From Chloranthus sessilifolius (lineage: Eukaryota; Streptophyta; Magnoliopsida; Chloranthales; Chloranthaceae): DNA of 64,000 bases. The DNA lies in assembly GCA_021018995.1 (NCBI GenBank), contig CM037590.1, positions 83,608,097-83,672,096 on the forward strand, read 5' to 3'. Within the stretch, counting starts at the first letter, position 1. Every line of letters begins with the position of its first letter. Below the pieces are notes generated by a model. The model worked only from the letters and a program-made list of their open reading frames with translations. It was not told where the DNA came from and did no database searches. Both the position numbers and the translations under genes were made by a program. Shown here piece by piece: positions 5,821 to 63,407 of the stretch.

Positions 5821-6833
5821 AAAAACATGTTAGGGTGTATTTATGATTGATTGTTATTTTTATTTAAAAAGATGTGTGAAAATTTTAATCAAACTAAAAT
5901 AAAAGATGAAAGAGATGAAAACTGCAAATCTAAAATACACACACAGTCCTGCAAGATCAAGGCCCTGTTGTTGCAAGTTTTGATAGGAAAGGGTTTGTCC
6001 CACAGGGAAGATTGATCTAGAACCACAAGGGTTATTTTAGTAGATCTCTATATCTGAGTACATATCTAGCAATCCTAAAGAAAGGGAGTTTTGGGTTGTC
6101 ACTAAACTAAAAAATAAATCTAAAAGAAAATTACAGTCCTATGCTATGAGAAAGGGTTTTGGAGAAGGATAAAATGGAGTTAGAAAATAAAAAGAAAATG
6201 GTGAGAAGTAATAAACTAGGAGCTACTATTTTTGGGCTGAAATAGGGGTTGGTTAAGCTGAGAAAAGCTAAATCCACATCAATCCCTCATTTGGCTACAA
6301 GCTCAAATGCAAGGAAGAAGAATCCAATCCAATCCAAGGATATGGACTAGTCTTAAGGTTATGATCTGTCCACTGAATGGTCACAGATCATCCCCAAAAG
6401 ATATACTCCAATCTAGGGATTGAAATCAGAATATTGAAAATTACTGCAGTTGCTATGGTTGCCTGGCTATAAGCTCATGCAACCATAGGAGTATGCAATC
6501 TATAGAGATCTAAATAAAATATAAAAGATCCTTACAGGTTGAATGATTGAAATAAAAATATCTTTACATTGCATAAAAAATACTTACAATGAAGCCCTCT
6601 TCACTGCAGCCAATGCAGAATCTATACCCTTCCACACTTTCACAGTCTTTTTACAGCCGAAAAACAATAATGCTAGCTATTACAAAGATCTTAGTCAGCA
6701 AGTGCTGAGCTAAGGAGATAAGAAAAAGGAAGAAGATGACCTAACCCTAACCCTCAATGACCCAAGCACGGAGAACTCTTTGCTCATAGCCAAATTAGGT
6801 TAAGGATCATATGATTATTTATGCTAAACATAG

Positions 6834-6842
6834 CTTATATAC
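6834..6842 (-). promoter_or_regulatory. TATA box of LTR A
   Basis: The minus strand reads GTATATAAG. The same box and its surroundings (AGCTTATATAC on the + strand) recur in LTR C, which supports it as the pol II promoter. The word island lies about 200 to 700 bp upstream and the stem-loops downstream, so the latter are transcribed. Confidence 0.7.
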
Positions 6843-7039
6843 AACCCATGCCAAAATATCTTACTCTGGCCAATAGGAATGTAGAAGAGAGAATGCCCGA
6901 TTTACCCCTGCTATCGTGGCCCATTGATAGCCAAGTGTTGCCTCGGGAGTGTGTAATAGCTCAGCACCTTAGGGAGTGTGCCCTAGCTACTATGAAATCT
7001 CAGAAAAGTCCCTTTGTATGGACTGAGAAGTTGGGAGCC

Positions 7040-7530
7040 CACAGCTCGCGAGGATGGATTTGCCAGATTTGCTTTTCGCGTGGCTCTTCGCATGGTTGGG
7101 TGGACTGTTGAAGAAGAGCTCATGAGGTTGGATTTACTGTGAACAACATAGCTCACGAGGATGGGCTCCAGGTGATTCAGGTCACTAGGATGTCTCCAAG
7201 ATGGAATTCAATGACTGTTACAGCTCACGAGGATGATTCTGTAGCTTGTGTGGATTCTTGCCAAGATAGTCTTAACTTCTCACGGGGCTGGCTTCAACTT
7301 TGAAGTGCACGAGATCTATGAGAGAACTTTGTGAGGAGATTTAATGAAGCTCCAATCCTCGCGGGAGCTTCGCGAGAGAGTTTTTTTGAAGCTGTTCTTT
7401 CATGGACTGCATGAGAACTATGCAAACACTTTATCTGCTGTGTGTCTAAACCACTAGAGATCCTCGTGAGGTAGCTTTAATAGGTATTCTAACTGTGTGA
7501 GAACCACTCAAGAGTTGTGCGAGGCCTGAT
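7040..7530. repeat. CTCGCGAG word island in U3 of LTR A
   Basis: This stretch is densely and irregularly strewn with CTCGCGAGG, TTCGCGAGAG, CTCACGAGG, CTCGTGAGG, GTGCACGAG and GTGTGAGAAC. These are one self-complementary word and its CpG-to-TpG/CpA variants. The spacing is irregular (about 20 to 60 bp), so it is not a tandem repeat. The same word fills the equivalent place in both LTRs of element C and a second, internal island in C. Confidence 0.85.
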
Positions 7531-7919
7531 ATCTGCTCCTCTACTGCAGTGCACATGTTACTGCAGTAGTCTTCTCTGCTTGGCCCATCTTCCATTCATT
7601 TGGTGGATTTCTAGAGCCCATGTAAGCAACCAAAATGGTCACCATGGTGTGTACCACCATGGTGTATCCTCGGTTCTTCCATCAACTGCAACCCTTGGCT
7701 TTACATCACTCTCTCTTCTTGGCCTCAAAATGGGTAAACTGTGACACTAGCTGCATTTATTTTCTTACTATAAAAACATGCTCCAAAAGGTCATTATTAG
7801 ATGGCTCCAACGTGTAGTAAAGGCAAGGTTAAGAGGCTAAAGATGATATTTTTCGGTGCTTAACAGGTATGCATCAATTTTTGAAATCTCAATAAGGCAT
7901 GCCCAAAAGATGACTTCTC

Positions 7920-8829: not shown

Positions 8830-9281
8830 TATTGGTTATCTTAGGGTGCTGTCTTATTATTGGTGAGAAAATAGTGGTGAAGAAAAATAAATCAAAAAGT
8901 GAAGAGATGAAATTTGGTGAAAACAATAAGTCTGAAATACACAGCCTACAAGACACACGATTGTTGTAACAAGTTTTGAGTAAGTAAGAGTTTGTCCCAC
9001 AAAGAAATTGATCTAGAACCCAAAATAGGTTATATTAGTAGGCCTCCAGATCTGGCTACAAATCTGATAATCCTAGAAAAAGGGAGTTGGATGTCACAAC
9101 TACACTAACTAACACTAAAAGAATAGAAGGAAAGTGCAGTCCTATCCTAAAGAAAGGGTTAAAAACAAGGTGGTGAATGTGTGTGTTAAAATAAAGATAA
9201 AAATGGTGGGAAGTAAACAATTAAGCTAAGGTTAATACAATTATGTAACTCAGATTTAGGGTTGTCTCTGCAGCAGTCCTT

Positions 9282-9990
9282 CAGATGGCTACAAGCACAT
9301 CTGCCAGGAAGATGTTTCTAACTCAACTCTTATGGTTTGACCTGATCTCTTAAGGCTATAACCTGTCCACTTCAATGGTCACAGGCTATCCAATAGAGAG
9401 GATCAAACCACATGAATTAAGTCAAAAAACCAATCTGATTTAATGGAATAAATTGATCTTAAGGCTATAACCTGTCCACTTAAATGGTCACAGATTATTC
9501 AATAGACGTCCTCCACCCAATGGATCAAATTAGAACATTAAAATCATTGTAGACACCGTGTTTGCCAGGCTACAAGCTCAGGCACCCATGGGAACAAATA
9601 GCTCTTGAAAAACCAGTGGAAACCACAGTTGTTCAAGGGCTATTTGGGAACTAAAATGCAGCTGGTCATTGCTACAAAAGGTTTATAATGAGTCAGCTCA
9701 CAAGTCTACAATCTCTATAAGGAAATCAGATCTAACATCTGATGTTGGTCAAGTACAACAGAGGGGAGCTTGTTCTTGCAATAACCTCTCACAAGGCTAC
9801 AGGCTCAAGTGCAGAGGGGAAAAAACCCTCTCAGATCTATGGCTTGGAATCACCCTAGAGCTATAGTCTGTCCACTTAAATGGTCGCAGGCTATCCACAG
9901 AGGTTATCCACACCATAGAGGACAGAGATGGAACATGAAAATTACTACTACCACCATGGTCCCAGGGCTACAAGCTCAAGCTTCCATGGT
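9282..9990 (-). other. Stem-loop series in R/U5 of 3' LTR C
   Basis: Two kinds of hairpin alternate. Kind II has the loop GGCTACAAGC(TC) between complementary arms, for example CAGATG/CATCTG at 9282-9303 and ACCATGG/CCATGGT at 9953-9990. Kind I has CCA-CTTaAA-TGG inside a longer stem, near 9361, 9472 and 9865. They lie downstream of the TATA box and so are in the transcript. Arms differ between hairpins and between elements, with both sides changed together. Confidence 0.7.
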
Positions 9991-10360
9991 TATTTCAAAT
10001 CAGCTCAAGCCCTAAATGTATGGCATAGATTGAACAAAACTATGGACATATAAGAAAATAATAGATTGAATAAACATTAAAATAGACATTCATTGATTAA
10101 ACCAATACTTACAATGAGATGTCCTCAAGGCAGCAGCCTTGTACATAACAGCTCATCAATAAATCCCAATGTTCACAAGACCCATTACAAAAACTAATAA
10201 AATTAAGCCTAATTGATTACAGAGAACATAGCCAATAAGTGCTTAGCTAAGGAAGAAGAAAAAAATATAAAAAGAAGTGATCAAACCCTAACCCTAATCT
10301 GCTGGATCTCACAGCTGACTGAAGTTGAAGGAGAGATATTTTTCTAAGTTAAATTTATAG

Positions 10361-10369
10361 CTTATATAC
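10361..10369 (-). promoter_or_regulatory. TATA box of the 3' LTR of C
   Basis: The minus strand reads GTATATAAG, identical to the boxes of LTR A and of the partner LTR. Confidence 0.65.
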
Positions 10370-10544
10370 TCAGTCACTAATGCCTTGGCCAAGAGAAGAT
10401 TAAACCCTAATTTTCTAATAGGCGTGGCTTGGTTACAACCCTTGGATACCTTGGGAGGTGTGCCTCAAGATCAGAGCCTCGGGACGTGTGCCCTGGACTT
10501 AGGAAAATACCCAAAAGGTCCCTGAGTAAAGACTGAGAAGTGGA

Positions 10545-11125
10545 GAGCCCGAGCTTCGCGGGGCTGGCTTTGTTCTTTTAATGCAGTCACGCAGTTGTAG
10601 AGTGCTAGAGAGGTGGGAGTTGGCTTGGAAGGTTTATCGCTCACGCAGAAGGATTTTCCATGTCGGGTAGTTGAGCTTCAGATATTTTACTCGCATAGGT
10701 GTCGCGTGGATGAATCACTGAATTTTACACCTCGCGTGGATAAGCCCTGAGTTCCCGCGTGGTTGTTTACCAAGACGGATTTTTCGCTTCGCGTGGCTAA
10801 CTTTGACACTGCAGTGCACAAGAGCTGTGCGAGAGCTTTTCTGAGCATCTCTCTCCTCCAGAGCTACGCGAAAACTACGTGAGTGGCTGGAGCCTTATAA
10901 CTAGATGAGCTGCGCGAGAACTCTTCGCACGACATTTCTGCCATGGACTCCGCGAGAGCCTCGCGACATGAACTAAGACTGAATTACCCTGACTTTGTGA
11001 GAACTTTGCGAGAAGGATTTCTGAAGATCCTCTTCAGTGAGCTGCATGAGAGCTGCGCCAGCTGGCTTTACAGTAGATTTGAACAGTGCGAAATAGCATT
11101 TCTACTGTACGAGATAACACCTCTG
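10545..11125. repeat. CTCGCGAG word island in U3 of 3' LTR C
   Basis: Many irregularly spaced copies of GCGAGAG, CTCGCG, CGCGAGAAC, GTGCGAGAG, CGCGTGG and their TpG/CpA variants, about one every 20-40 bp. The right LTR has the same island at 28060-28600 with a partly different set of decayed copies. Confidence 0.85.
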
Positions 11126-11450
11126 CTCCTCTACTGCAATGCATATGCTGTTGTTCGGGCTTTCTCCACTCACATCCATACTTCTCTCATCTACTAGACT
11201 TCCTTCGTCCATCATGACAAACAAAATAGTCACCATGGTGCGTACCACCATGGTGTTCCATCAGTCTTTGGCTCAGCAGTCATCCTTGGCTTGAATTCTC
11301 TCTTTTTGGCACTAAAGGCATGGACTTTATATTAAGCTATATAAATTATTACTACTACAAAATAAGCTAAAAAAATAGTTACTAGTTAGCTTCAAGGTGT
11401 AGTAAAGGCTAGGTTAAGAGGTGAAAAGTGGTACTTTTCAGTGAATAACA

Positions 11451-11466
11451 TTCTCAAACCTAATCT
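11451..11466 (-). promoter_or_regulatory. Polypurine tract region of element C
   Basis: Directly inside the 3' LTR the minus strand reads TTAGGTTTGAGAA. The equivalent site of D reads TTAGGTTTGGGGGTG next to its LTR, a better-preserved purine tract for priming plus-strand DNA synthesis. Confidence 0.6.
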
Positions 11467-13419
11467 TTGGTAGTCCTCGAGCAAAGCAAAATTTAAACAA
11501 CTACTCTAAGCATGTAAATACCACTTTCGTAGGGAGCACGGATGCATTTAGCTTATTCATCAAGCCTTTTAAACCCCTAGGTGATCCCTAGTGGAGGAGT
11601 GAAGTCTCCTGAGGATTTTCAGTGAAGATACCCATAAACTTCTCACTAAAACAGTTAACCAAAGTGCAACATTCATCAAATCAGCTTTCAATAAATAGAG
11701 CATCAGTCAACCTTTGATTCTTTTCAAAATGTAAGGAATTTAAACAAATGAAATGCATAGACCATTTAGTATGAAAAACTCTTACATGTATGCACATCAT
11801 TTCCAATTAGCTTACACAAAGAAAAATAGCAAATGAATTTCAGTACTGAGCTCACCATTAATTCAAAAATTATGTTTAGACATTGCCCAATACATTCAAT
11901 GTCAGACCCAATGCTTACCAGGGCAGTCTCTCACAAATAACTTTGAGGGTTTTCATTTTCACACAAGCTCAAGAGCAATTACAACTCCCAACTGAGTCTG
12001 CAAGAATGAGCATGGGCAAGGCTTCTAAATTCTGACATCATTGACTATTTCTCACCATAGATTGGACAACTCCTTATCTCCCCATAACAGTTCATTCCAC
12101 TTAAGATCACAAGGTCTTATGATTGTGTAATGTGACTTATGGGTGTAGGTTACAAAGAATGGAAGGGTGAAAAGGATGTAAAATTGAGAAATCAGCAAGT
12201 GAAGGAGGTGATTCATGACTTCTTCTTTTAATTTCAGCATATTTCATCTTCTTTGATATTTTTCAGATTTGAAATGGCCAGCTTCTTCTCTTATTTTTAC
12301 TTTTTACAATGAAATTTCCTCTTGACTCCTCTCTTTTCCTTTTCATTATATATTTTTTTCCTTTGGATATATTTTTCTTTTCTTTTTATTTTTATCTTTT
12401 TGAAATGCCACCCTCTTATTCCCAGCTGCTACACTGTTGTCTTCCTTTTGTGTTTCTTCTCCATTCACCAAATATTGACCCTAACTTGTCCATCTTCAAC
12501 TCTTCCTCCTTTACCTTCTGAATTCTAAGAGTGGGGGTAGGTTTGAATTAGGTCCACAAGTTAAGGGGCAAATACTCAGGTGTATTTTGAAGAAAAATTA
12601 GAAATAAAGGCTCAAAAGGTGTATGCACAAGGGCAGTTTACTGGGTTTGGTATCTTTAAGCTCAAACTTTCTAAGAGAAGGCCTTGATCCTTTCCTAAAT
12701 GTCATGGGTGTTGTCAGCTATTTTAACTTGGAGATGCCTAACTTCTAATGAGGAAATAAACTCAGTCAGTCCTTAGAGCAAAAAGAATTGCCTAAGACAC
12801 TCCTCAAAGAGAATATATATATATATTTTTTTTTGTAGGCCCATATCTCACTAGGTATGGTCTTCCATTGAACTCATGGGCATGCCCTTACCTTTTTCTC
12901 TCTTTAATGGTTCACTCAGTGCTGACACAAATGAGGTTTCTTAGTGTTCACCTCAAGGAAATGTTAAAATTTAAAAGCTTTTAATGCTTAAAGGTCTGTA
13001 AATTTTTTTAAGTTTTCTCATTTTCAAAGTTCCTTAGATGAACTTAGCTCTATTTCTATCTTACATAGTTCTGCTGCACTTAGGTTAACTATATGATTGG
13101 CAAACCTTGCCACACCCCTAAACCTATGAGGAACAGTGTCCTCACTGATTCAAAGAGAAAGGATATGTGCAGCAAGGTATTTTGGTAAAAATAAGACACA
13201 AAATAAGGCAGGTAAAAGTAAGAAATAAAACTCACACAAACAAGTAAAACAAACAAGTAAACAGCAGAAATAAAGTACCCCAAAAAAAATCCAGATAAAA
13301 GCTAACAAAAATACTTTCATTTATAAAACAGGGAATTGTACAATGCAAGTGAAAATAACTATAAAAACATCCTAACTAAATACATGTACACAGTTTTAAT
13401 CATCTGAATTTACATCAGC
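11467..13419 (-). other. 3' noncoding region of element C (env-like ORF to polypurine tract)
   Basis: Nearly 2 kb without a supported gene. Two blocks are strikingly similar to the equivalent region of element D: 11535-11640 (with CCCCTAGGTGATCCCTAG) and 13110-13150 (with CCTAAACCTATGAGGAACAG). A pyrimidine-rich stretch lies at 12300-12530 and a short AT microsatellite near 12815. Short open frames here look like chance. Confidence 0.65.
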
Positions 13420-14082
13420 CTATTCTTGGACTCCTTTCCCTTTCCCCTTCTTAAGAACAGTAGCAGTGGATTTGTTTCTCTTGGAAGTAGTTTTTCTCTG
13501 CTTGGTGACGCTTCTCTTCTTTGGAGTTGGCTCTGGCTTTGATGTAGGCTCCTTTATGTTGATCTCAGGTTTTATTTTTTGGGGCTCTAGGGGTTTAGGA
13601 GCAGTTGCCCTGGGAGGGGCAGCAGCAGTGAAGAGAGAGGCAGTAGCTGCTGCTAATTCTCTGTCACCAATATTAGATAAGGTTTGTTGCAATGTTGCAG
13701 CAGTCCTAGTATAATCATTGGCCCTCTCCTCCACTAGTCTCAGTGCTAATTGCAGATTCTTGATCACATCTTCCATCCCATCAGCTCTATTTTTCTCTTC
13801 ATTATATTTGAGCAGTGTCTCCCTCCATCCATGTTTTATCCTTTTTCTCTTCATCTTATGAGTGAGTTCTAAAAATTTGATTTGATCTAGGAGTGGCTGC
13901 TTAACTGAAGTTCTGAGGCCAGCCATGCCTCTAACCACATCCCTCTTGATGTAGGTATTTTCTTTCATTGCTTTTAGGAGGGTGGAGTATGGGGGCATGG
14001 GATTGAAAGAGGTAGGTAGTACGGGCTGCTCAACATTGGAAGAAGGGCCAGCCAACAATGATGAAGGGATGGATGATGGCAT
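13420..14082 (-). pseudogene. env-like ORF region of C, C-terminal part
   Basis: An open stretch of 220 residues at the C-terminal end of the Athila 'env-like' region. It has a conserved block (ENTYIKRDVVRGMAG, then KQPLLDQIKFLELTHKM) that reappears in element D as ENPYIKRDIIRGMAE and KQPLLSQIKLFMLAHKM. A charged, coiled-coil-like stretch follows, then a very lysine/arginine-rich tail (PKKRSVTKQRK, KKGKGKG). No membrane segment is seen here. The basic tail suggests nuclear import or nucleic acid binding. Part of a broken fossil. Confidence 0.65.
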
Positions 14083-15500
14083 GGGTGGGGTAGAGCTAGA
14101 GGGTAAAGGTTGGTGGACTTCAAGTTCAGGTTCTAGGACGTCTATTACCTCAGGGAGTTTGGGTTGGAATTGAGGAGGTGGGGATTAGGTCCTCCACATC
14201 TGTGGTAGCATCAGTTGTTGCTACTACAGGTGGGGTTGCAGGTTGGGGTTGTGGGTAAGTGAGTTCCAACGGTGGGGCAATAATGGGTGGCTGTATAAGG
14301 TCAGGTTCAGGTTCAGGGACAGTTTGAGTTGAGGCAGTGGTAAATATAATTTGAGGGGCTTCCTGAATAGGTTAAATGGATGTAACAGCAACTGTTGTTG
14401 CTGCTAAGGTTAAGGGTTGGGGAGATGGGGGATAGGTATATGGGTAGGTGGAGGGATAAATGTTTATTGGGAAGGTTGGGTTAAGATTGATTGGATGGCT
14501 TGTAAACTAGTTTGAATGGAGGCCTGGTTTTGGAGGGTGGAGTTCATGGCTTGAAGGTTGGCCTCTATGGATGTTTGGGTTTGGGTGTTGGCCATCACTT
14601 GGGTTTGAAGGGAGAGGATGAGGTTAAGGATTTGGGGTAGGGGATCAGGTATGATAGTGATTGTGGGTTGGTGGTTATAATTGGTTGAAATGGTGAAGTG
14701 GGTGCATGATAAAAGTTAGTTGGCTATGGTGAAGTAGGAGTAGGGGTAAAGTGATGGAGCTGTGGTGAATCTGGGAGAGGGGTAAACTCATAATTGATGT
14801 TCCCTATAATAGAGTCCATCATAGCTGAGTATCCCTCTGATGAGATGGGGTCTTGGTCATGGGTAGGGGAATAAGGAATGGATTGGCCCAAGGGTTTAGT
14901 TTCAGTGTGTGTAGAGGTTTCAATGGGTTGAGATGAGGCTACATGTAAGCTGTGTGGGATGTCAAGGATTTGAGGCTCAGGTTCAGCCTGGTGAATTGAA
15001 GAGGCTTGGGCTGGTGAGGGTGGTTGTACATCTGTGGTTGGGTCTGATATGGCTGTTGTTTCAGGGATAGGGATAGGTTTGGGAGATATGGGTGGGTTGG
15101 GCTCAGTGGGGGCTTTGGTTGGTTTCCTTTTTCTATATGTAACCATGATAAGTGGGCTGGGATGGGCTATGTATGTAGGCACAGACACTGGGATGGGTAT
15201 AGGTGATGTAGTGGTGGCTGAGGTAATGGATATGGTTGGCTCAGGGATAGGCGATGTAATGGTGGAAGGTTGTGAGGTTGGGGTTGCGATAGTGGCTGGC
15301 ATAGGAATGGAGATGAGTGTGGAAGGTGATTGTGTAGATGATGATGATGGAATGGGTTGAGATGGTAATGGGATGGTGGCAATAGGTATGGTAGGGATGG
15401 CTGCATGAGAGATGGCAGCAGAGCTGACAGCAGAGGTGGCAGCAGCTATCTCTTGAATTATGGGGGCTGCTTGAGCTAGCAGCTCCTTCTTTTCAATCAA
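14083..15500 (-). pseudogene. env-like ORF region of C, Pro/Ser/Thr/Ile-rich middle
   Basis: A low-complexity section dominated by Pro, Ser, Thr, Ile and Ala (SPIPIPVSVP, ISPKPIPIPE). On the + strand it appears as the matching G/T-rich track of GGTTGGG-type runs. Element D has the same kind of section in the same place but with different sequence, so composition rather than sequence is kept. It is probably a disordered linker between the conserved N-terminal and C-terminal parts. Broken fossil. Confidence 0.6.
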
Positions 15501-15590
15501 GGTACCACTGATCTCCTATTGCTTCTTTCCACATTTGCTAGGGGCTAGGGTGAGGGTCTCCTCATTCATCTGAAAGTGGTAGCCCCCCAA

Positions 15591-16220
15591 CTACAGCAGG
15601 GCTATAATGAGCCTGCAGTAGAGCAAGGAATGGGGCTTCTGCTCTCTCTTTACCTTCTCATGTATATCTTTCATTCCTTCAAAGATTAACTTTACGACAT
15701 CAATGTAGTGGTTGCAGTGGTAGGAGTAGAGGGCATCAGCAATTGGGGACCTCTCTTGTTGGTGTCCAGAATAATATACATTCTTTCTCAGCACCCCATC
15801 CATGAATCTTAGACTAGGGTGCAAGTCTCTCTTACTAATGGACACCCCAGAAGCAGTGACTCCTCCAGTGAGCTCCTTGGCAATTTCTGGGATTATGACT
15901 GTCAATGGTGCACCCAAACCACACTTTGGATCATATGTGGCTGGTTTCCCAAGTATTTCAGCAATTGTTGCTTGGTTATACAACATCTCAAAATTATCAA
16001 TCAGAACCAGCAATGCAAGGTTCCCATCATCTCCAGTCTTCACTCTGATATTTTGGTAAAATAACTGCACTAGTCTAGGGAAGACTAGCTGTAGTGGGGG
16101 CCTTAACAGGGGTACCAGTGAGGCTTTTGTTAGGTACTCCATTGAAGCAGTTATCTCTGGCTCTTCCTCAAAGAAAGCCTTGTCAAAGGCAGTCTCTGCC
16201 TCAAGCTTAATTGCAGCCAC
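15591..16220 (-). pseudogene. env-like ORF region of C, conserved globular domain
   Basis: A 209-residue open stretch with the best-kept part of the env-like region: YLTKASLVPLLRP, VFPRLVQLFYQNIR, a hydrophobic LALLVLIDNFEM strand, AEILGKPATYDPK, RDLHPSLRFMDGVLRKNVY and SGHQQERSPIADALY. The same blocks occur in D (40877-39736) and E (61796-62532). It resembles the domain often labelled 'putative plant transposon protein' in plant annotation. The function is unknown. No signal peptide or membrane helix was seen. Confidence 0.72.
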
Positions 16221-16310
16221 AAACTCAAAGGGGATTCTGGGTGACTCATCATCAGATTCATCCTCTTAGGCAACCTCAGGGACCTCAGGGGTCACTTCCT
16301 TGCCCTTCTT

Positions 16311-16640
16311 TTATTTTTTCTTTGGTTTCTCAGGGCTTTTACCAGGTGAGTGGGTTCTGACCCTCTTCTTAGGGGCAGATTTCTTCTTTAGAGCAAGGGC
16401 ATCAGAGGCCACAGATTTGGCCTTCTTCACAGGGGCAACCATTTTCGTAATTTGTTCCCCTTGGGACTCTACAATTGGTGTAAGCATCTCAGAGGTCTCC
16501 ACAGTGGAGGCCTCTACAATCCTCACAAATTTGTGTGTGGCCACAGGGCTACCAATAGGTGAAGGGTTTAGCATGGCAGCAAAGGTATCAATAAATTTAG
16601 AACTTATGGCCATATCTACACAAAATCTTCAATTTAGGTC
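16311..16640 (-). pseudogene. env-like ORF region of C, N-terminal part
   Basis: Likely N-terminal part of the env-like ORF. A start at MAISSKFIDTFAAML is followed by an acidic/serine-rich stretch and a lysine-rich patch (KKSAPKKRVRTHSPGK, PEKPKKK) that looks like a nuclear localisation signal. D and E also place a lysine-rich tract near the N-terminus, before the conserved domain. The word island begins about 380 bp upstream of this start. Confidence 0.6.
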
Positions 16641-16989
16641 TTTAAACTCAAAGATTGGCTAGTGCACACTCCAAAGACAATATGGCACACAAATTCCTCT
16701 CTACCCAACACTGAAATAGCATACTAATTTAAACCACAGGGGAGAGTGAGACAACTTACCAAACGAGAGCTAGGGTTCCACTTCAAACATTGCATAGAGG
16801 ATAAATCTCCCCAAACTGAGTTCAAACTAATCGGGAGTTGTTGTGGAACATAGTGGTGGGATAAAAGTAGCTGAGTTGCAGTGGTTTTCGCAGTAGAGAA
16901 GAAAGAAGGGAGAAGGGAGCTCGCTGGTGTGCAATGGAAGCTAGGGCAAAGAGAGAGAATGGAGAAAATAAAAAAATTTGCAGGGTATA

Positions 16990-17490
16990 AGTGGAGGAAC
17001 CCGTGCCTCGCGCGCTTCTCGCCAGATACTCGCGGAGCAAAGTCTTCTCTTGAGACAGGGTGAGATATCATGAGAAATGAAAGTCACGAAGAAGAAAGAT
17101 GCCTCGCGAGGAATGTAATTTAAGAGATCCAGGAGTCTCGCAAGGTCAGTCACGGAGCTAATTGGGGTCTGAGCGCACGAGTGGACATTTGTATATTTCG
17201 TGTAGCTGAGCTTTTAAACTCGCGAGACTCATAAGTTCAAAGCATCAAGGGCCTCGCAAGGCAGTTAATAGTGCAGGCTTCAGATATTTTCTCACGAGGC
17301 TCTCACGAGATATAAAATGTGTGATTTCCAATAGTCGCACAGCTCAATGTCGCGGAGAAGAGGTAGCCTCGCAAGGTTCATTTGCAGGCGTTCTTCAGAT
17401 CTTTAGCTCGCAAGGCTCTCGTGAAGTAACAATTTCCATATTAGAGCCCCACGAGAAAGCCCACAAATCGCTCGCGAGAGTGAAATTTAG
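16990..17490. repeat. Internal CTCGCGAG word island of element C
   Basis: A second island of the LTR word, between integrase and the env-like ORF: CCTCGCGAGG, CTCGCAAGG, ACTCGCGAGACTC, CTCACGAGGCTCTCACGAG and GCTCGCGAGAG. It lies 380 to 870 bp upstream of the env-like start, similar to the distance of the LTR island from its TATA box. A TTATAC stretch near 16988-16995 is a weak TATA candidate on the minus strand. Confidence 0.83.
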
Positions 17491-17920
17491 TCCAGTGAGC
17501 CTCATGACAAATCAGAATTCACTCTCTCTCAATGCTTGCACACTGGCATGCACTATGCCCTTATGTATTAACACCACATTGCTTCACTATTCATCTAGTT
17601 CACCATGATAATCTCCATGTCCATTACTACATATTCACAGCAAAAATTCAGAATGCAAATGATTTTCAATTATAGCAGATTCATGAACATTTACATGACA
17701 GCAAATCAACCACACAACAGCAACAGAACATGCACATCAACAGCAGGTCCATGCACATTAAATTCATATGACAAAACATGCACCTCAATAACAACAACAA
17801 GACAAAACAAGACAAAACATGCACATCAACACACAACACAAACAACACATGACAAATTTTTAAACAAAACAACACACAAATTCACAAAGTATGGTACATA
17901 GTGTACAGAGTTGTGGATCA
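17491..17920 (-). other. Noncoding spacer of C between word island and integrase end
   Basis: About 430 bp, A/C-rich, with many loose repeats of ACAACA and CATGCACATCAAC between 17690 and 17880. No gene was seen. Confidence 0.55.
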
Positions 17921-25329: not shown

Positions 25330-25690
25330 ACTAAAATCAATTAATCGAACCCTAAATCGATTAATCGATTAATCGAAATCCAACATGGCAAAGTCGATTC
25401 TCAAATCGAGTAGTCGAAAGTCTGAAATCGATTAGTCAATCCCAAATCGATTAATCAGAATCCAAAATCGATTAATCAATTTCCCAAATCGATTAGTCGA
25501 TTTCCCCAAGTCTTTTCTCTCCAGTCACTGGAGGTACCTAGTCGATTAGTCGATTTCCAAATCGAATAATCAAAATTCAAAATCGATTAATCGATTTCCA
25601 GATCGATTAATCGAAATCGGGCATCCTTGCTTTTTCAACTTCTAGACCAAAATCGATTAATCGATTCTCAAAATCGATTAATCGATTTAG
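25330..25690. repeat. AATCGATTAATCGATT word island in the solo LTR
   Basis: About a dozen and a half copies of AATCGATTAATCGATT and of shorter or decayed forms (AATCGATTAGTCGATT, AATCAATTT) sit between ordinary sequence at 15- to 50-bp intervals. The word is fully self-complementary. Unlike the Athila LTRs, this island lies downstream of the TATA box in transcript direction. Confidence 0.88.
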
Positions 25691-26060
25691 CCAGACTCAG
25701 CCCCTTTTCGGGCTGTTCCTCCAAATCTTTTCCTCATTAATTCCTCCCTTTTTCTATGCCTTTTAATCTATCTTTTAATTACATTTAACTAATTTTAATC
25801 ATCTACAATTTATGCATTTACTTTAATTAGAAACTCACCTCCAATTAAATCTCAATTTGATCAATTTTCTAGGTTGGAATGGCTAGGGTTCCAACTTTGT
25901 TTCAACGATTTCAATCGCGTTGAATCTGGCAATCAATGCTTGATCCCCTCTTGGTTTGCATTAATTTTTGGCTCAATAACTCCTCTTTACTCTCTCTCTC
26001 TCTCTCTTCTTAACTCTCTCTTCACCAACCCAAACAAAAGAATTCTAGGGTTATTAAACC

Positions 26061-26313: not shown

Positions 26314-26771
26314 AAAACTTGTTGATTATCTCAGAGTGTTGTCTTATTATTGGTGAGAAAACAATGGTGAAGAAAAATAAATCAAAAAGTGAAGAGATGA
26401 AAATTGGTGAAAACAGCAAGTCAGAAATACACAACCTACAAGATACAGGGCAGTTGTAGCAAGTTTTGAGTAAGTAAGAGTTTGTCTCACAGAGAAATTG
26501 ATCTAGAATCCAAAATGGGTTATATTAGTAGGCCTCCAGATCTAGCTACAGATCTGACAATCCTAGAGAAAGGGAGTTGCGTGTCACAACTACACTAACT
26601 AAAACTAAAAGAATAGAAGGAAGTGTAGTCCTATCCTAAAGAAAGGGTTATGAAGAAGGTGGTGATGGTGTGTGTTAAAATAAAGATAAAAATAGTAGGA
26701 AGTAAACAATTAAGCTAAGGTTAATACAATTAGGTAACTCAGATTTAGGGTTGTCTCTGCAACAGTCCTTT

Positions 26772-27476
26772 AGATGGCTATAAGCACATCTGCCAGGAAG
26801 ATGTATCTAACTCAACTCTTATGGTTTGGCCTGGTCTCTTAAGGCTATAACCTGTCCACTTCAATGGTCACAGGCTATCTAATAGAGAGGATCAAATCAC
26901 ATGAATTAAATCAGAAAACCAATCTGATCAATAAAATAAATTGATCTTAAGGCTATAACCTATCCACTTAAATGGTCACAGATTATCCAATAGATGTCCT
27001 CCACCCAATGGATCAAATTAGAATATTAAAATAATTGCAGACACCATGTTTGCCAGGCTACAAGCTCAGGCATCCATGGGAGCAAATAGCTCTTGAAAAA
27101 GTAGTGGAAACCACAGTTGTTCAAGGGCTATTTGGGGACTAAAATGCAGCTGGTCATCGCTACAAAAGGCTTGCAACGACTCAGCTCACAAGTCTGCAAT
27201 CTCTACAGGGAAATCAAATCTAATATCTGATGTTGGTCAAGTACAACAGAGGGGAGCTTGTTCCTGCAACAACCTCTCACAAGGCTATAAGCTCAAGCGC
27301 AATGGAAAAGAATCCCTCTTAGATTTGTGGCTTGAAATCACCCTAGGGATATAGTCTGTCCACTTAAATGGTCACAGACTATCCACAGAGGTTATCCACA
27401 CCACAAAGGACTGAGATGGAACAAGAAAATTGTTGCTACCACCATGGTCTCAGGGCTACAAGCTCAAACTTCCATG
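26772..27476 (-). other. Stem-loop series in R/U5 of 5' LTR C
   Basis: The same series as at 9282-9990. The clearest kind I stem is ATAGTCTGT/ACAGACTAT at 27351-27382, a perfect 9-bp stem. Element A uses ATGATCTGT/ACAGATCAT at the equivalent hairpin, so two base pairs have changed on both arms. Confidence 0.7.
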
Positions 27477-27849: not shown

Positions 27850-27858
27850 CTTATATAC
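27850..27858 (-). promoter_or_regulatory. TATA box of the 5' LTR of C
   Basis: The minus strand reads GTATATAAG. It is the expected pol II promoter for the element transcript, with the word island 200 to 750 bp upstream. Confidence 0.68.
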
Positions 27859-28938: not shown

Positions 28939-28943
28939 CCCTC
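28939..28943. other. Target-site duplication CCCTC (right copy, element C)
   Basis: CCCTC directly after the right LTR of C, matching 8825-8829. The pair shows that everything between was brought in by one integration event plus later nesting. Confidence 0.9.
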
Positions 28944-39733: not shown

Positions 39734-39735
39734 GG

Positions 39736-47603: not shown

Positions 47604-47989
47604 ACACCACTGTAGACACCCAGATTTTACCCAAGGCCTTATCGAAGCACATTTCGAGAGAGGCGCATTCTCGAGCTTTTGATGGCATGTATGGAACCCT
47701 TAGGAATCACCCTAGATCCCCTAGGAACTTGCCCCAAACTTTTAGAAATCAATCCTAACCCTTAGAATCCGTTCTGAACCTAAACCTAACCTTCTGAGCC
47801 TTGGAAAAGGAGTGGTACACCGGAACTAGCTACGGCCTTCTACTATAATCAAATCTTATACCATTGCAAAGTAGAAGTCGCCAGCTTTTCAACAGTCTAA
47901 GAATCACCCCAATCGAAGTTATACATCGAAATATATGGCGGTTCAAACCTGGAGGGCAAAGGAGTAATTTCAAGTGGGCCCCCTTGGGA

Positions 47990-48240
47990 TTTGGCGCAAC
48001 TTATAGTTGCGCCAGGCCATTTCTTCCCAGAAATGGGTTGTACCAGTTATACTTTTGCCTGGTGCAACTATTAGTTACGCCAGGCCATTTTCCCAGAATT
48101 TAAGCCTGGCACAACTAATAGTTGTGCCAGTATTAAAGTCGACCCTACCCTCGCGAGGCAAGTTCCAAGGCACTGTTCAACACTGTTTTACTATACATTT
48201 GCCTGGCGCAACTATTAGTTGCACCAGGCATATGAATAGT
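47990..48240. repeat. GCGCAACTATTAGTTGCGCC word island in LTR F
   Basis: Six or so copies of GGCGCAACTATTAGTTGCGCC, GGCGCAACTTATAGTTGCGCC and variants (GCACAACTAATAGTTGTGCC) at roughly 50-bp intervals. Each is a near-perfect palindrome of about 20 bp. The same word returns at 50035-50175 in the leader of the same element. Confidence 0.88.
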
Positions 48241-49560: not shown

Positions 49561-50657
49561 AACAGTGGACGCCGGCCGTAATGGCGGCACGAGATCATCA
49601 CCCTCGGACTTTGAACTAAAGAAAACTTCCATAAAAAAAAAAGTTTTGAAAGAAAATTAAAATTGAACCAAGTTAGGGAGCTTAATTAATTTGCTTTTAC
49701 GGGATAGATTTTAAAAGGGCTGGGTTTAGGCACACATACAACCACCCAGGTCTTAGTATGGGGCAGCCCCTAGTGGTGATGATCCAGAAAAGTCCCAGCC
49801 CACCTAGTATCTGAGAAAGCGCTTACGTCAGAGGTATATCAGCTGGGTTCCCATTTCAAAGCTTAAAACCCTTGGGGAGCGCGCTAGCGAGTTATACCAG
49901 ACTCAAACCTTTAGGATTCGGTGAGGAGAGAATCGATCATATAAAGTCAAGTAGTTCTCGGAAGCCCAACTTCCACAGAAACCCAAAACAGACCCATCTT
50001 CAGGCTGTTATTCCCTGTTGTTTTAGAATCTGGAGCACCATTTTTGCCTGGTGCAAGTATTAGTTGCACCAGTATAAAATTGGGAATTTATAACTGGCAC
50101 AACTAATAGTTGCGCCAGTGTAAAAAAGGGCCCCTGCAACCTTTGCGCATGTATTAGTTGCGCCAAGTTTGCCTTGACAGTAGCAGCCCAAAATCTGAGG
50201 CTCTTTTCACCTCCCGAGTCTCTCGGTCAGTGTGCTTAGTGCCTTTATTTGGGCCCCGCTATCTCTGACACCCAATACGCCCCTGCCGGTCAAAAGAAGG
50301 CAACTTCTTTTTGGCTCATCCTGGGGGATAGGGTTGTTTGCCTCGATTTTTGTGCCTTCAATAGATCGAAGGTCCTCTTTCAATTCTTCTGAAGTGCATC
50401 AAAATCGTCGCCGCGGGTCTCAAATCAGGGTACGAAGGCCACTCGAGAAGGGAATTTTAAGGCCTCAGAACCTTTATTTTACAAAAAAGGTCTTTCCAGA
50501 AAAATTAATTAATTAAAAATCAAAAAACCTAAAAAAATAGAGTTCTTGTGGTGCCGACACGACGACATCATCTTGCCCTCCATCATCCTGTAGGGGAAAA
50601 AGGAGGAGGATTTTTTGGCCTTATCCAAGGCACCCTTACCCAACCCGTTCCCGTAGA
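49561..50657 (+). other. Leader of element F (rest)
   Basis: About 1.1 kb between the tandem repeat and gag with no supported coding sequence. It contains the second word island of F at 50035-50175. Long leaders are usual for Ogre-type elements. Confidence 0.65.
50035..50175. repeat. Second GCGCAACTAATAGTTGCGCC word island of F (leader)
   Basis: Three copies: a decayed GGTGCAAGTATTAGTTGCACC, GGCACAACTAATAGTTGCGCC and GCGCATGTATTAGTTGCGCC. They are the same palindrome as in the LTR of the same element, 480 to 620 bp upstream of the gag start. Confidence 0.83.
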
Positions 50658-55889: not shown

Positions 55890-56480
55890 CAGGCTGAAAA
55901 CATCCTATCGGGAGGTCATCTGAAGACTTCGATAGGAGCTGAGAGTTAAACTAGAGGAATTCATGCAGTTAGTGAGGCTTCGATAGGATCTAAAGGTAGA
56001 GAAAAGAAGGATTCGTGAGGATTATGGAATTTGATAGGAGCCAAGGACCTATCAAACAGCTAAAAGAAAGATAGAGTTCATCCTGTCAAAAACTGTCTAA
56101 GGAGAAAAGGGAACCTATCGGAAGGTTTCTTGAACCTATCGGAGGACCACCTGGACCTATCGAAATGGAGATGCTGGAACAGCACCTATCAAAGGATACT
56201 TGAGCCTTTCGATACGAGTGAGGGCCATCCTATCGAAGTGATGGCATGTAAAGCTAAAACCTGTCAAAACAGTCATCCAACCTATCGAAATGCTCCTCCA
56301 GCCTGTCGAATGCTCCAGATAAAGCGCAGTGAATGCTGAAGCCTCAAGGCTCGTCCTATTGGAACTTATCAAAGAGATTGGAGAACCTAGTGAAAGGACT
56401 AAAAATCTCTACTTGAACCTGTCGGAAGCTTCCCCAACTTGTCAAAATCGTGTACAAAACTTCTCAGAAAATCAACTATG
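55890..56480. repeat. CCTATCGA word island in U3 of LTR E
   Basis: CCTATCGGGAGG, TTCGATAGG, CCTATCGGAAGG, CCTATCGAAATG, CTATCGAAGTG, CCTGTCGAATG and decayed CCTATCAAA forms occur about every 20-40 bp. The word is close to that of D but reads CCTATCGA(A) rather than CCTCTCGACAGG. It recurs internally at 60905-61265. Confidence 0.85.
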
Positions 56481-60440: not shown

Positions 60441-60904
60441 ATGAAGGTTAAGTTGAATGTGTACAACACCGGCCATCAACCCTCTCTTGAAGAGACTTGT
60501 TTTTCCATTAATGCACAAGAGAAGGTGATGCATGAAAATACACATCGGTTGTTGTAGGGCAATGCTTGGTTCACAGATGGAAAACTGCACCCAGGGGAGG
60601 GACACATGCTAAGGAAAGGATCCACAAAAGGTACCAAAATTGATGACCATGCAGAGACCGTGGACCTTTCAGATCCTCCGGATTAGCCCCTGAAGTCCAG
60701 TATGTACCATATGTACTATATTTTGCTGTTGTTCTAAGTGCTTTATGTTCTTTTTGTAATAAACATGCCATCATATATTATTTTAATCTGGCCTGAGATA
60801 ATGAGAGTTGTCCACCAGGGAAACAAACTATAGAGCAGTACAGCAGGAAAGCCTGCTGAGTGCTACAGTTGAGAATGCCTGGAAATGCAGTTTATGTGGT
60901 TTTT
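60441..60904 (+). other. Noncoding stretch of E between protease and word island
   Basis: About 460 bp. After the protease comes no RT; short open pieces and an AT-rich part (60700-60790, with TGTAATAAACATG near 60756 as a possible polyadenylation context) were seen. No recognisable gene. Confidence 0.5.
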
Positions 60905-61265
60905 GGGAGCTTTCGATAGGTCAATTGAACTTTTCGTTCAGTCACTATATAGTTTCGACAGGATAATTGAGGGTTTCGATAGGCCCTGAGCTGATCGACA
61001 GGTGAAACCAACTTCTCGATAGCTCAATAGGGGTAAAATAATGATTTCAATAAGTTATGGATACCTATCGGGAACTTATCGAAAAGATGAGTCAGGTCCC
61101 ACTTAAACCTATCAGAAATACCATTCCACCTATCGTGAACCTATCGAATCATCCACTCTGAAAGCCTTGACTGTTAAGCTTTCGATAGGACACATCAACC
61201 TATCGAAACCAACCTATTCATCCTATCAAAATCATATTTCTTCCTTTAAATACCTATCGATAAGT
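60905..61265. repeat. Internal CCTATCGA word island of element E
   Basis: TTTCGATAGG, TTCGACAGG, GATCGACAGG, CCTATCGGG, CCTATCGTG, CCTATCGAAACC and decayed forms repeat the word of LTR E, 300 to 660 bp upstream of the env-like start at 61568. A TATA-like TTTAAATA lies at 61245-61252. Confidence 0.85.
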
Positions 61266-61567
61266 CATTTCCGCCCCATTTGGTACCATCTGCAAACCCT
61301 AGCTCTCTTCCTCATTTTTCGCCTCCCCCTTCTCTCTATTAAATCCCACAGAAACCTTCAGCTGTTCAATCTGCCATTTTGTGAGTACATTTAGTCTGCA
61401 CAGAGGTGCATTTTGCCTCGAATTTTAGAGAAATTGGAGCTGTAAATTGCGACATCTAAAAAAACCCTAGGATTCTCGGGTAGGTTGTCTTCTTACTTTC
61501 CCTCTGACACTTTCCTAGCAGTTAATTCAGCGTTTTCCTACATACTGTTCCATTTTTGAAAGAAATA

Positions 61568-62532
61568 ATGGCCGATTTTGAAGAAACCCTCGCTGACTTG
61601 TTTCAGCAACCAACTGCTTCCACCCCTAAATCTGCCAAGAAAGCAAAGCCTCTCACTAAACCACCTACCAAGAGGAAGCTCTCTAAAGAGACACCCAAGA
61701 AGGCCCATAAAACTAAGAAAGCTAAAGCCGTTGAAATTCAGGAGTCTGTGGTAGAAACGCCCTGAGAGAGAGCTGCTCCAGCTGCAGAAATACCTGTGCT
61801 CACCCTTCCAGTGGGGTTAACTACCCCCAATGAATTTGTGGACACGTTGAGTCTTGTCCCTGAGACAGACTTTGACCTGGCATACTTTTCCAACATTGGG
61901 GAGTGCCAGGGGACATTGACCTATTTGAAGAAAGAAGGTTTGTTACCCCTGCTTTCACCTTTGAAAGAAATGGTTTATCCCAGGCTGGTGAAATTGTGGT
62001 ATCAGAACCTGACCAAGAAGGTGGTGCCTGGGACTGAGGATGTACTTGAGATTTTGATCGATGATTGGTAGCTGATTGTAGACTGCAACGATATTGGGAT
62101 GGCTTTGGGAGTCCCATATCAATTTGACTCCACCAAAGCTGAGGGAGCACCTATTTGGGCTACCTTTAGGGAAATGGCAAAGCAGCTCACCAATGGTATT
62201 GTGGGCTCTGATGGTTAATCTCTGATGAGAAGAGACCTCCCTCCTACCTTAAGACTCATGGACACCATTTTGAGGGAAAATGTCTATGTCACTGGCCATT
62301 TGCAAGAGCGGAGGGCCCCATTAGTGGATGCCCTATTCTATTGTTCAAAGGAGCAATTTGTAAATGCACCCAACTTGATTTTTGAAGCATTGGTGGACAT
62401 CAATGACAAGGTGCTGAAAAGGCAAGCTTTTGCAAAGGAAGGTGGTCTGCCCTTCAGTAGACTCATCACATGCCTGCTCAAGGCTGGGAAATATGCGATC
62501 AAGAAAAATGAGCCAGTGGAGAAGGTGACCCT
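61568..62532 (+). pseudogene. env-like ORF region of element E
   Basis: The start MADFEETLADLFQQP at 61568 is followed by a very lysine-rich tract (KSAKKAKPLTKPPTKRK, ETPKKAHKTKKAKA), then the conserved domain: TTPNEFVDTLSLVPETDFD, YLKKEGLLPLLSPLKEMVY, PRLVKLWYQNL, MALGVPYQFD, RRDLPPTLRLMDTILRENVY, GHLQERRAPLVDALF and RLITCLLKAGKYAIKKNEP. The same blocks are in C and D. There is no signal peptide and no membrane helix. The region ends where the inverted LTR piece begins. Broken fossil. Confidence 0.75.
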
Positions 62533-63407
62533 TGTTGGTGTTTCTGCCTTCCCTTCAAAGAGGGTTTAAAATTCACTCATAAATCTAGGCAGATCACACT
62601 TACACAAACCTGCAAGTAATCAGGGCATGTTGTAGCAAGTTTAAAAAAGATGGTAAGTAGGGGAATGTCCACAGGGAGGTTTGTTTAAAATGTGTTAGAT
62701 CTCCAGATCTGTAAAGGATCTGGCACCCTAACTAATGCTAAATTAGCTCAAAGATAGGGGAGAGGTTTAAAAAGGGTTGTCACTTAAGCTATACTAGAAT
62801 AAAATAAAAACTAGCTGGGATCGAGTTTAGAAATCCAGATCTTGCAACGGAAAGGAATTAAAAATAGAAAATGGAGAAGAGTAGCTTGAAAATTGGTCTT
62901 ACTGAAATCAGGCTAGGTTAATCATGCCACAGGGGTTTAGAGCACACAAATCCCTCAACTGGCTACAAGCACAGCAGCAAGGTAGAATACTCCAGTCCAA
63001 ATCAAATGATCTAACTAGTCTTAAGGCTATGATCTGTCCACTTTAATGGTCACAGACCATCCTATAGACTTTATCCGATCTAAAGATTTACAGCTAAAGA
63101 ATCCAATTGAATCCTGAGAATGGACTAGTCTTAAGGTTATGATCTATCCACTTTAATGGTCACATATCATCCTAGGGATTTCCTCCAAAGCAAAGGCATA
63201 AATCAGAGCATTAAAACCACTACAGATGCTGTAATTTCTAGGTCGCAAACTCAGGGAATTACAGGGATATCAGATCTAGGGAGATCGGATGGTATCCAAG
63301 AGGTCTACCAGTTAAGTGGGTGAGCTGATCTACAGACTCCTCTACACAAATCTGATCGAGCACCAAATGAAACCAAAGGAGCTTTAGATCTAATTACAAC
63401 ATTTACA
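62533..63407 (-). repeat. Inverted LTR piece at the right end of E (R/U5 part)
   Basis: It begins TGTTGGTGTTTCTGCC and is the reverse complement of roughly 56905-57787 of LTR E over 875 bp, with about 5% differences by eye. It covers the transcribed, U5-side part of the LTR including the stem-loops (about 62960-63265). It ends TTTACA directly beside the GCAGG duplication, so its last bases again read CA. Confidence 0.85.

Follow-up and report, generated by a model that had tools for sequence, protein, structure and literature searches.

Why should an LTR retrotransposon carry many copies of a self-complementary word at two distant sites of the same element? The question is raised by a 64-kb stretch of DNA (the window), in which five nested Athila/Tat elements and one solo LTR contain 11 family-specific word islands among them. 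A preliminary description proposed that matched words need a common reader, namely a sequence-specific DNA-binding protein, small RNAs, or repeated copying from one site to the other. Direct observation covers the arrays and how they match, the phasing in elements D and E, array placement, and D spacers that lack a clear copying sign. We consider it moderately probable that the islands are putative protein-read operator (enhancer) arrays at two promoters.

Elements and word islands

Each family is represented in the window by one or two copies (Table 1). The Athila-type PBS has no mismatch in A, one in E and three in C; none was found for D, the 5' end of which is absent. An RVT_1 domain is found in D and RT_RNaseH in A, the pol blocks of A, C, D and E are 66-74% similar in nucleotides, and on pol the placement in the Athila lineage is provisional. 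A search of viral contigs with the RT found no relative. C, D and E have an additional ORF (ORF3) between pol and the 3' LTR, broken in all of them; that of A lies outside the window. The D LTR starts near 36246 (minus strand); a presumed insertion at about 32.9-35.06 kb apparently separates off its downstream part. The word array of U3 is upstream of a TATA-like box in A, C, E and F; TATA-like candidates of D occur at ~35.11-35.13 kb, and another was noted by eye at ~32.70 kb. Downstream of the internal island, a TATA-like element was seen in C and E but not in D. From the end of the internal island to the ORF3 start codon downstream of it, the distance is 293-347 bp in C, D and E, all three elements with an ORF3 in the window.

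Table 1. Retrotransposon features and word islands, in positions of the window.
Feature	Position	Strand	Remarks
Athila element A, LTR	5828..7868	-	Edges read from sequence; PBS adjoins at 5804-5819, 0 mismatches
A LTR word island	7000..7530	-	CTCGCGAG, many degenerate copies; in U3, upstream of TATA-like ~6841
Athila element C, 3' LTR	8832..11467	-	88% to 26322-28956
C 3' LTR word island	10540..11130	-	CGCGAG-type
C ORF3 region	13423..16613	-	Start codon 16611-16613; ORF broken by stops and frame changes
C internal word island	16960..17510	-	Between pol and ORF3; ends 347 bp upstream of ORF3 start codon
Solo LTR word island	25330..25700	.	AATCGATTAATCGATT; solo LTR inserted within element C
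Athila element C, 5' LTR	26322..28956	-	Alignment to C 3' LTR
C 5' LTR word island	28030..28620	-	No significant 10.5-bp phase
D LTR word island	35370..35870	-	16 dyads around TGAACCTnTC|GAnAGGTTCA
D ORF3 region	38310..41057	-	Start codon 41055-41057; broken
D internal word island	41390..41840	-	14 dyads; ends 333 bp upstream of ORF3 start codon
F (Tat-like) LTR U3 word island	47985..48240	+	CTGGCGCAACTAwTAGTTGCGCCAG-type, 4 sites
F leader word island	50030..50180	+	3 sites; between PBS (49242-49259) and gag
E LTR word island	55890..56470	+	CCTATCGA-type, 17 sites; followed by TATA-like ~56656
E internal word island	60900..61275	+	14 sites; ends 293 bp upstream of ORF3 start codon
E ORF3	61568..62530	+	Start codon 61568-61570; contains stops; truncated at 62531 by inverted LTR fragment

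The islands were found where the preliminary description had placed them, far above chance both in word density and in a 7-mer scan. In the D and E islands, words with at most one mismatch to CCTATCGA, CCTCTCGA or CCTGTCGA reach a density of 15.5-39.9 per kb, compared with 0.30-0.56 per kb in the remaining window, which makes them 28 to 120 times denser inside the islands than elsewhere. For AATCGATT the density is 56.6 per kb within the solo LTR, which has tandem units of 20-21 bp, vs. 0.27. The CpG observed/expected ratio is 0.40-2.20 in the islands and 0.27 for the window. An unbiased scan of the 64 kb for locally over-represented 7-mers returned 10 of the 11 islands within its 24 strongest separate windows, the F leader island not being among them. 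The remaining 14 windows comprise runs of A, stretches rich in AT or in C (the latter partly coding), and three words with CpG, at 24526, 34501 and 59101. The borders of the islands were drawn with knowledge of the words. Two scans do not depend on these borders: the 7-mer scan, and another whose 40 best entries do not include the LTR/internal pair of C.

Degenerate copies of a word make up most of the arrays, and exact ones are scarcer than first described: CTCGCGAG occurs five times in the window (one in A, three in the C internal island, none in the C LTRs, one in F) and GCGCAACTAATAGTTGCGC not at all. The word of D and E is a dyad of 18-20 bp, TGAACCTnTC|GAnAGGTTCA, which occurs in variants. 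Neighboring elements had been said to carry different words, which does not hold throughout, since A and C have one common word, and D and E another.

Matching of LTR and internal sites

All four elements with both places inside the window (C, D, E and F) show the same word at two distant sites, as had been claimed; A and the solo LTR have a single site each in the window. The second site is internal and noncoding in all four, as described, except that in F it sits in the 5' leader before gag and not after pol. When a model is trained on the LTR island, the internal island is the best other place in the 64 kb for D and F, the first after the other LTR copy for C, and the second for E, with the D LTR ahead. 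Within-element scores are reached by 0-1 of 200 dinucleotide shuffles. Inside the D/E clade the matching extends across elements (z 7.4 for D_LTR to E_int and 8.5 for E_LTR to D_int), which makes it mainly a property of clades; the four cross-clade pairs that were run do not match (z -3.0 to -0.2). Position 4 of the word offers a finer mark, the variant CCTC, found in D in 7 of 16 LTR half-words and 7 of 19 internal ones and in E in none of 12 and none of 10, respectively (D vs. E, Fisher P 3.5e-4, the half-words not being independent). The presence of this variant at both D sites and at neither E site, together with D spacers that bear no sign of copying, supports the common reader proposed initially.

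Helical phasing of the dyads

The spacing of the words had been described as irregular. This is contradicted in D and E, where 49 of 57 adjacent dyads are in phase (no more than 0.2 turn away from an integer number of helical turns; best period 10.4-10.5 bp), and also in the A LTR for one of the two lists of sites. A pooled D and E period scan from 6 to 30 bp gives the same optimum (z 9.4, 0/1000 jitters), and at 10.5 bp the islands taken singly are reached by 0/2000 (D_LTR), 0/2000 (D_int), 5/2000 (E_LTR) and 16/2000 (E_int). Steric packing as the source was rejected, because a hard-rod packing null attains 49/57 in-phase spacings in 0/2000 cases. The same null gives 0/2000 for pooled gaps of at least 26 bp (21 of 26 in phase) and 26-281 of 2000 for such gaps in single islands except D_LTR. 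A spacing of 21 bp accounts for 20 of the 57 cases. Tandem duplication of a 21-bp unit was rejected in turn, since the spacers are unrelated: identities of adjacent/distant pairs in the four D/E islands are 0.31/0.31, 0.32/0.33, 0.33/0.27 and 0.26/0.28. A threshold-free score autocorrelation, in which the site model of one island is run on another, peaks at 10.4-10.5 bp in four of six runs; both runs on D_int peak at 18.1-18.2 bp and not at 10.4-10.5. Among the three proposed readers, phasing at 10.4-10.5 bp favors a DNA-binding protein; small RNAs, a less likely reader, leave the phasing unexplained.

The phase of the A/C clade is uneven. In the A LTR, 20 looser sites give a best period of 10.5 (0/1000; 16 of 19 adjacent in phase), and six strict sites do not show the 10.5-bp phase. 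For the strict words of A and C_int the period scan is non-significant (11.8 bp, 455/1000), and the value at 10.5 bp is 6/1000. Looser sites of C_int give 4/1000 at 10.5 bp, with 9 of 18 adjacent in phase, and those of the C LTR islands are not significant there (C_3LTR 105/1000, C_5LTR 247/1000). When the looser sites of the four A/C islands are pooled, the best period is 11.9 bp, yet the value at 10.5 is 0/1000. The solo LTR has a best period of 10.2-10.3 bp, and its adjacent sites are not in phase (8 or 10 of 22).

Proposed operator arrays and the gene after pol

These features may be explained by one protein acting at two promoters; protein binding, promoter activity and promoter coupling are what we infer. 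Each D/E site, an 18-20 bp dyad, would be of the type bound by a protein dimer. As successive dyads are mostly whole helical turns apart, dimers bound to them would all stand on the same side of the helix and might cooperate. The first array, in the U3 of the LTR, precedes the TATA-like box of the promoter for genomic RNA, and the second, matched array, just upstream of ORF3, would control an internal promoter; in the Tat-like F, the second array is that of the leader before gag. With matched arrays at both promoters, a single reader protein would couple them. A change in its specificity would force both arrays to follow, so that the word would stay the same at the two sites of an element and vary from clade to clade. 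Candidates for the reader are the ORF3 product, which is related to PF20167 and has a basic N-terminus, and a host factor.

The ORF3 product is a plausible candidate. A Pfam scan of 11 stop-free pieces of the ORF3 regions found PF20167 in two; weak matches to Herpes_capsid and ACC_epsilon were judged spurious. The PF20167-like stretch of C (15594-16265; E 3.2e-9) scores 37.4 bits, below the Pfam cut-off of 45. D has a PF20167-like stretch in 39739-40419, and its positions 40440-40904 are a homologue of the N-terminal half of that of C. The predicted structure of the PF20167 stretch (A1, 4 rows) has a mean pLDDT of 43, and protein searches with the C stretch and with A1 returned nothing at E 1e-3. 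The N-terminal stretches of ORF3 are basic (K+R vs. D+E, 19/8 in C, 9/6 in D and 15/8 in E). In C and E no stretch in the frame of the start codon exceeds a 19-residue hydropathy mean of 1.34; the D region has stretches of 1.70 and 2.03 in possibly non-coding frames, so membrane parts are possible in D. An envelope nature of ORF3 is doubted. In sunflower Athila, the 3' additional ORF is similar to PF20167, and its product is predicted to be nuclear (PMC11728184). The ORF in env position is reported as the source of many Athila ESTs of A. thaliana (PMC2410132), which would be compatible with an internal promoter. Tentatively, Athila ORF3 might be a dimeric, nuclear, family-specific DNA-binding protein and not an envelope, which would read phased dyads in the LTR and at its own promoter, act in self-family activation or anti-silencing, and be an LTR-retrotransposon counterpart of VANC, with co-evolution of word and reader.

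Alternative readings

A host transcription factor is a possible, though rather doubtful, reader; one host activator would then be recruited by both the LTR promoter and the internal one, and each clade would have adopted a different activator. LTRs have repeated cis-acting boxes for host factors, and Sirevirus motifs were matched by their authors mainly to stress-related sites (both from the available part of PMC2829016); moreover, the Tat-like F has the same two-site pattern with no ORF3 in the window. In our judgement, however, numerous dyads of 18-20 bp and clade-specific shifts at both sites seem excessive for a host factor.

Copying is unlikely, whether as an internal island left over from an LTR fragment or as repeated homogenization of the two sites by recombination or template switching. 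LTR and internal words are identical in type, the F LTR and leader sites have a common 85-bp alignment at 78%, and the likeness of E_LTR and E_int spacers is reached by 2/40 shuffles, a weak hint that some copying may have occurred between these two. However, no alignment of LTR and internal islands of at least 80 bp at E 1e-5 exists in C, D or E. Block copying of the LTR site to the internal site was rejected in D because the D_LTR and D_int spacers are dissimilar (16/40 shuffles reach their score), whereas those of D_int and E_int are alike (0/40), and the D and E internal islands look orthologous. Repeated copying, as one of the readers first suggested, thus finds no support in D.

Quite unlikely is an origin of the words as hairpin or small-RNA features, with palindromic transcripts feeding or decoying the silencing machinery. 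Palindromes of Sirevirus LTRs are reportedly tied to siRNA in maize. Relative to 50 shuffles each, folding z-scores are -11.8 (solo), -10.1 (F_LTR), -7.2 (F_lead), -6.9 (D_int), -6.1 (E_int) and -4.7 (D_LTR), about -2.5 for A, C_int and E_LTR, and -0.05 for C_3LTR, with -1.5 and 0.5 in two pol controls (C_5LTR left out). Yet good folding is expected of any self-complementary array and is thus non-discriminating, and a hairpin model predicts neither the 10.5 bp phasing nor the one-sided sites of E. Chance, or a base-composition artefact of CpG-rich, partly tandem DNA, would fit the few exact words and CpG-richer islands but has a negligible probability given the shuffle results and word densities above.

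Relation to known systems

The arrays have a nearer precedent than the VANDAL/VANC system invoked in the preliminary description, namely the repeated motif of Sireviruses (Ty1/copia; Bousios et al., 2010, PMC2829016), which that description did not name. As far as the accessible text goes, Sireviruses also have element-specific palindromic words, in many copies, CpG-rich and in U3 upstream of TATA, which begin 200-400 bp into the LTR and extend for 300-500 bp. More copies lie upstream of the env-position gene, as here in C, D and E, and the authors proposed an internal promoter. Since this two-site anatomy was published in 2010, the kind of arrangement is already known. The hosts here differ in being Ty3/gypsy Athila/Tat elements (Athila-type PBS; Athila-position ORF with PF20167) and not Ty1/copia, so the arrays would work like the Sirevirus motif without being a member of it. 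In addition, the CGG-CCG core is missing from the words, as it is from that of Tnd-1 among Sireviruses, and the second array of F is in the leader. The searched text of the Sirevirus paper has no mention of helical phasing. The open-licence literature searched yielded no report of helical phasing, of Athila hosts or of a parallel shift of the word.

Of the VANDAL parallel, only the function stands. According to the available text (Hosaka et al., 2017, PMC5735166), VANDALs have family-specific short motifs in several noncoding places, differing between families, and encode an extra protein. However, they are DNA transposons, and VANC has DUF1985/DUF287, neither of which was found in the 11 stop-free ORF3-region pieces; the ORF3 found here is PF20167-related. 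As the ORF3s are broken, a VANC domain may have been lost. Palindromes go unmentioned in that text, in contrast to the dyads here, and VANC target motifs expand by tandem repeat formation, unlike the unrelated spacers of D and E. The 21 bp centre-to-centre distance of EBNA1 dimer sites in Epstein-Barr virus oriP (accessible part of PMC3798644) recurs in the 20/57 D/E spacings, a geometric analogy only, the genome and protein being unrelated. The sunflower Athila ORF has in common with ORF3 the position after pol and the Pfam family PF20167, and an NLS is predicted for it; that element has a separate antisense ORF with a predicted membrane segment, and word arrays are not described in the accessible text (PMC11728184).

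Significance

The purpose of the extra post-pol gene in plant retrotransposons is still debated, according to the available text of PMC11728184, and so is the family-by-family response of LTR elements to silencing. With phased, matched arrays before the genomic promoter and ORF3, binding of ORF3 to its own dyad becomes directly and cheaply testable. In sunflower, Athila LTRs show clade-specific methylation, and the role of element-encoded factors was left open by the authors in the text available (PMC12844716); arrays of this kind may offer an explanation for that methylation.

Elements and word islands

The window is plant DNA made up of LTR retrotransposons nested in one another. A PBS of Athila type is present in three of the four Athila-like elements (A, C and E), and the pol blocks of all four share 66-74% nucleotide likeness. 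In C and D the ORF that follows pol (ORF3) resembles Pfam PF20167; that of E is assigned through its D homologue (60% identical across 92 residues). Element F, in which a G-patch domain terminates the gag-protease region, is taken here to be Tat-like. The sample is this one window, with one or two copies per family. C seems to have landed in what looks by eye like an older pol gene of the plus strand, the LTR of D is suspected to be split by an insertion, and the right end of E seems rearranged. The LTR starts of A, C, D and E can be aligned across clades, unlike most of U3, and contain an inverted repeat, which in D and E is of the GTGAAAAATAyCAyTTTTCAC type.

Positions of elements and associated features in the window
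Feature	Position (nt unless kb is stated)	Strand	Remark
Athila-like elements A, C, D		minus	four with E; PBS, pol likeness, post-pol ORF
Athila-like element E		plus	same basis
Solo LTR			within C
Alignable LTR starts (A, C, D, E)	7769-7865, 11354-11458, 28842-28946, 36150-36254, 55639-55736		first ~100 bp of LTR
Older pol gene pieces	7900-8831, 28957 onward	plus	by eye; either side of C
Suspected insertion in D LTR	about 32900-35060		
AT-rich repeats of 34-35 bp	33304-33558		in suspected D insertion
CpG-rich stretch	about 34.0-35.1 kb		in suspected D insertion
TATA-like boxes of D	~35.11-35.13 kb; ~32.70 kb		second by eye
450-bp windows with CpG words	24526, 34501, 59101		unbiased scan; CCCCGGG, AATCGCG, CGGCAGC
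Exact A/C word	48150-48157		one copy, within F LTR island
70-bp tandem repeat, 2.7 copies	49360-49547		F leader, between PBS and word sites
Tandem repeats of 24, 35 and 39 bp	51403-51791		F gag region; proline-rich reading
Inverted 0.87-kb LTR fragment	62531-63403 vs 56920-57789		94% identical; truncates E ORF3

Eleven islands, dense clusters of mostly degenerate copies of a clade-specific palindromic word, were analysed, the two LTRs of C being counted separately. Allowing at most one mismatch, the D and E islands hold 15.5-39.9 words per kb against 0.30-0.56 elsewhere in the window, and the solo LTR 56.6 against 0.27. At the same tolerance the A/C word, CTCGCGAG, occurs 6 times in the A LTR island, 11 times in the C internal island, 2 and 3 times in the two LTRs of C, a single time in the D and in the F LTR island, and 3 times in the entire remainder of the window. 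An unbiased 7-mer scan places 10 of the 11 islands among its 24 strongest windows, from which the island in the 5′ leader of F is absent; the other 14 windows are not islands, and three of them have CpG words. Enrichment falls into four blocks: A and C form one, D and E another, and F and the solo LTR one each. There is some spill of the E internal island into the solo LTR block, ATCGAT being common to both.

Matching between LTR and internal islands

When 6-mer spectra of windows at least 2 kb apart are compared all-against-all, the LTR-internal pairs of D, E and F rank 3rd, 9th and 10th among the best 40 pairs; the C pair is not among these 40. Models trained on the LTR island rank the element's own internal island first in the 64 kb for D and F, first after the other LTR copy for C, and second, behind the D LTR, for E. 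Models trained on internal islands rank the LTR top in all four cases run. None of 200 dinucleotide shuffles reaches the within-element scores, with the exception of the C internal model on the C 3′ LTR (1/200). At clade level the word match is firm, because islands from different elements of one clade match as well (A LTR to C internal, z 5.5; D LTR to E internal, 7.4; E LTR to D internal, 8.5) and the four cross-clade pairs score no higher than their own shuffles (z -0.2 to -3.0).

The finer match inside the D/E clade rests on the model ranking and on word position 4, where C is found in 7/16 and 7/19 half-words of the D LTR and internal islands and in 0/12 and 0/10 of those of E. The pooled difference (14/35 vs 0/22) gives a Fisher P of 3.5e-4, which is a guide only, since half-words within one island are not independent events. 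With word cores masked and 40 shuffles per pair, the spacers of the D and E internal islands are alike (0/40 shuffles reach the observed score), which argues that the internal island predates the D/E split. Spacers of the two D islands are not alike (16/40) and those of the two E islands slightly so (2/40); the remaining pairs give 3/40 (D LTR with E LTR), 38/40 (D LTR with E internal) and 19/40 (D internal with E LTR). The words of D and E thus differ at both sites, in D with no clear sign of copying between them.

Dyad and helical phase

Aligned on their TCGA centre, the D and E words yield the dyad consensus TGAACCTnTC|GAnAGGTTCA, near-symmetric in D and with one half stronger in E. The 57 adjacent spacings are 21 bp in 20 cases, 31 bp in 7 and 8-116 bp in the remaining 30, and 49 lie within 0.2 turn of an integer number of helical turns. 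Scanned from 6 to 30 bp, the pooled sites have a best period of 10.4-10.5 bp (z 9.4; 0/1000 jitters), the pitch of B-DNA, and the single islands give 0/2000, 0/2000, 5/2000 and 16/2000 at 10.5 bp. Randomly packed rods with a minimum spacing of 8, 18, 20 or 21 bp do not reproduce the pooled phase (0/2000 at every spacing); even among gaps of at least 26 bp, 21/26 are in phase (0/2000 pooled). The weakest single island under this null is E internal (10-56 of 2000). Spacers of neighbouring sites are barely more alike than those of distant ones. Threshold-free autocorrelation peaks at 10.4-10.5 bp in 4/6 runs; both runs on the D internal island peak at 18.1-18.2 bp, which counts against the 10.5-bp phase.

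Outside this clade the phase varies among the islands with enough sites for such an analysis, those of A, C and the solo LTR; F has too few. The 20 refined sites of the A LTR follow a 10.5-bp period (0/1000), 16/19 adjacent sites being in phase; in the C internal island the phase is weak (4/1000; 9/18), and in the C LTRs it is not significant (105/1000 and 247/1000). Strict words of A and C internal, pooled, do not follow it: their best period is 11.8 bp (scan, 455/1000), with 6/1000 at 10.5 bp. The four A and C islands together peak at 11.9 bp, yet give 0/1000 at 10.5. The solo LTR, which contains 20-21 bp tandem units, has its best period at 10.2-10.3 bp (25/1000 in the scan), with adjacent sites out of phase (8/22 or 10/22 in phase).

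Placement and the ORF3 product

LTR islands are placed at about 0.27-1.0 kb within the LTR, and those of A, C, E and F have a TATA-like box downstream of them. D, whose LTR is seemingly split by an insertion, has candidate boxes at two alternative places (~35.11-35.13 kb and, by eye, ~32.70 kb). Internal islands end 347 (C), 333 (D) and 293 bp (E) upstream of the ORF3 start codon, from which pyrimidine-rich runs separate them. A TATA-like box follows the internal island in C and E; none was found at this place in D.

All ORF3 copies in C, D and E are broken or truncated. PF20167 scores (37.4 bits in C, 20.4 in D) lie under the Pfam cut-off of 45. N-terminal stretches are basic (K+R vs D+E: 19/8 over 100 residues in C, 9/6 over 50 in D, 15/8 over 65 in E), and by eye the middle of the C product is rich in P, S and T, and its C-terminal part is basic and probably helical. 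The maximum 19-residue mean hydropathy, over stretches of at least 30 residues in the start codon's frame, is 1.34 in C (7 stretches) and 1.01 in E (4 stretches); in D, where the frame changes, 2/8 stretches reach 2.03 and an other-frame piece 1.70. In an active sunflower Athila the post-pol ORF matches PF20167 and is predicted to be nuclear (PMC11728184), and in A. thaliana the env-position ORF is the source of many Athila ESTs (PMC2410132).

A possible reader of the arrays

The arrays, their matching, the D/E phase, the placement and the parallel word difference are shown by this window. A dimeric protein may read the arrays along a single face of the DNA at two putative promoters; such a reader would couple the two. 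The same two-site anatomy is described for Sireviruses (PMC2829016), elements of another superfamily (Ty1/copia); helical phase, seen here, goes without mention in those passages of that paper that were searched for it. Anti-silencing is among the possible outputs, plain activation being the simpler one. Reading by a host factor would extend to F as well, but explains the same data less fully than reading by the ORF3 product. If ORF3 encodes the reader, an auto-regulatory loop would be closed, and this would account for both the matching of words within clades and their divergence between clades.
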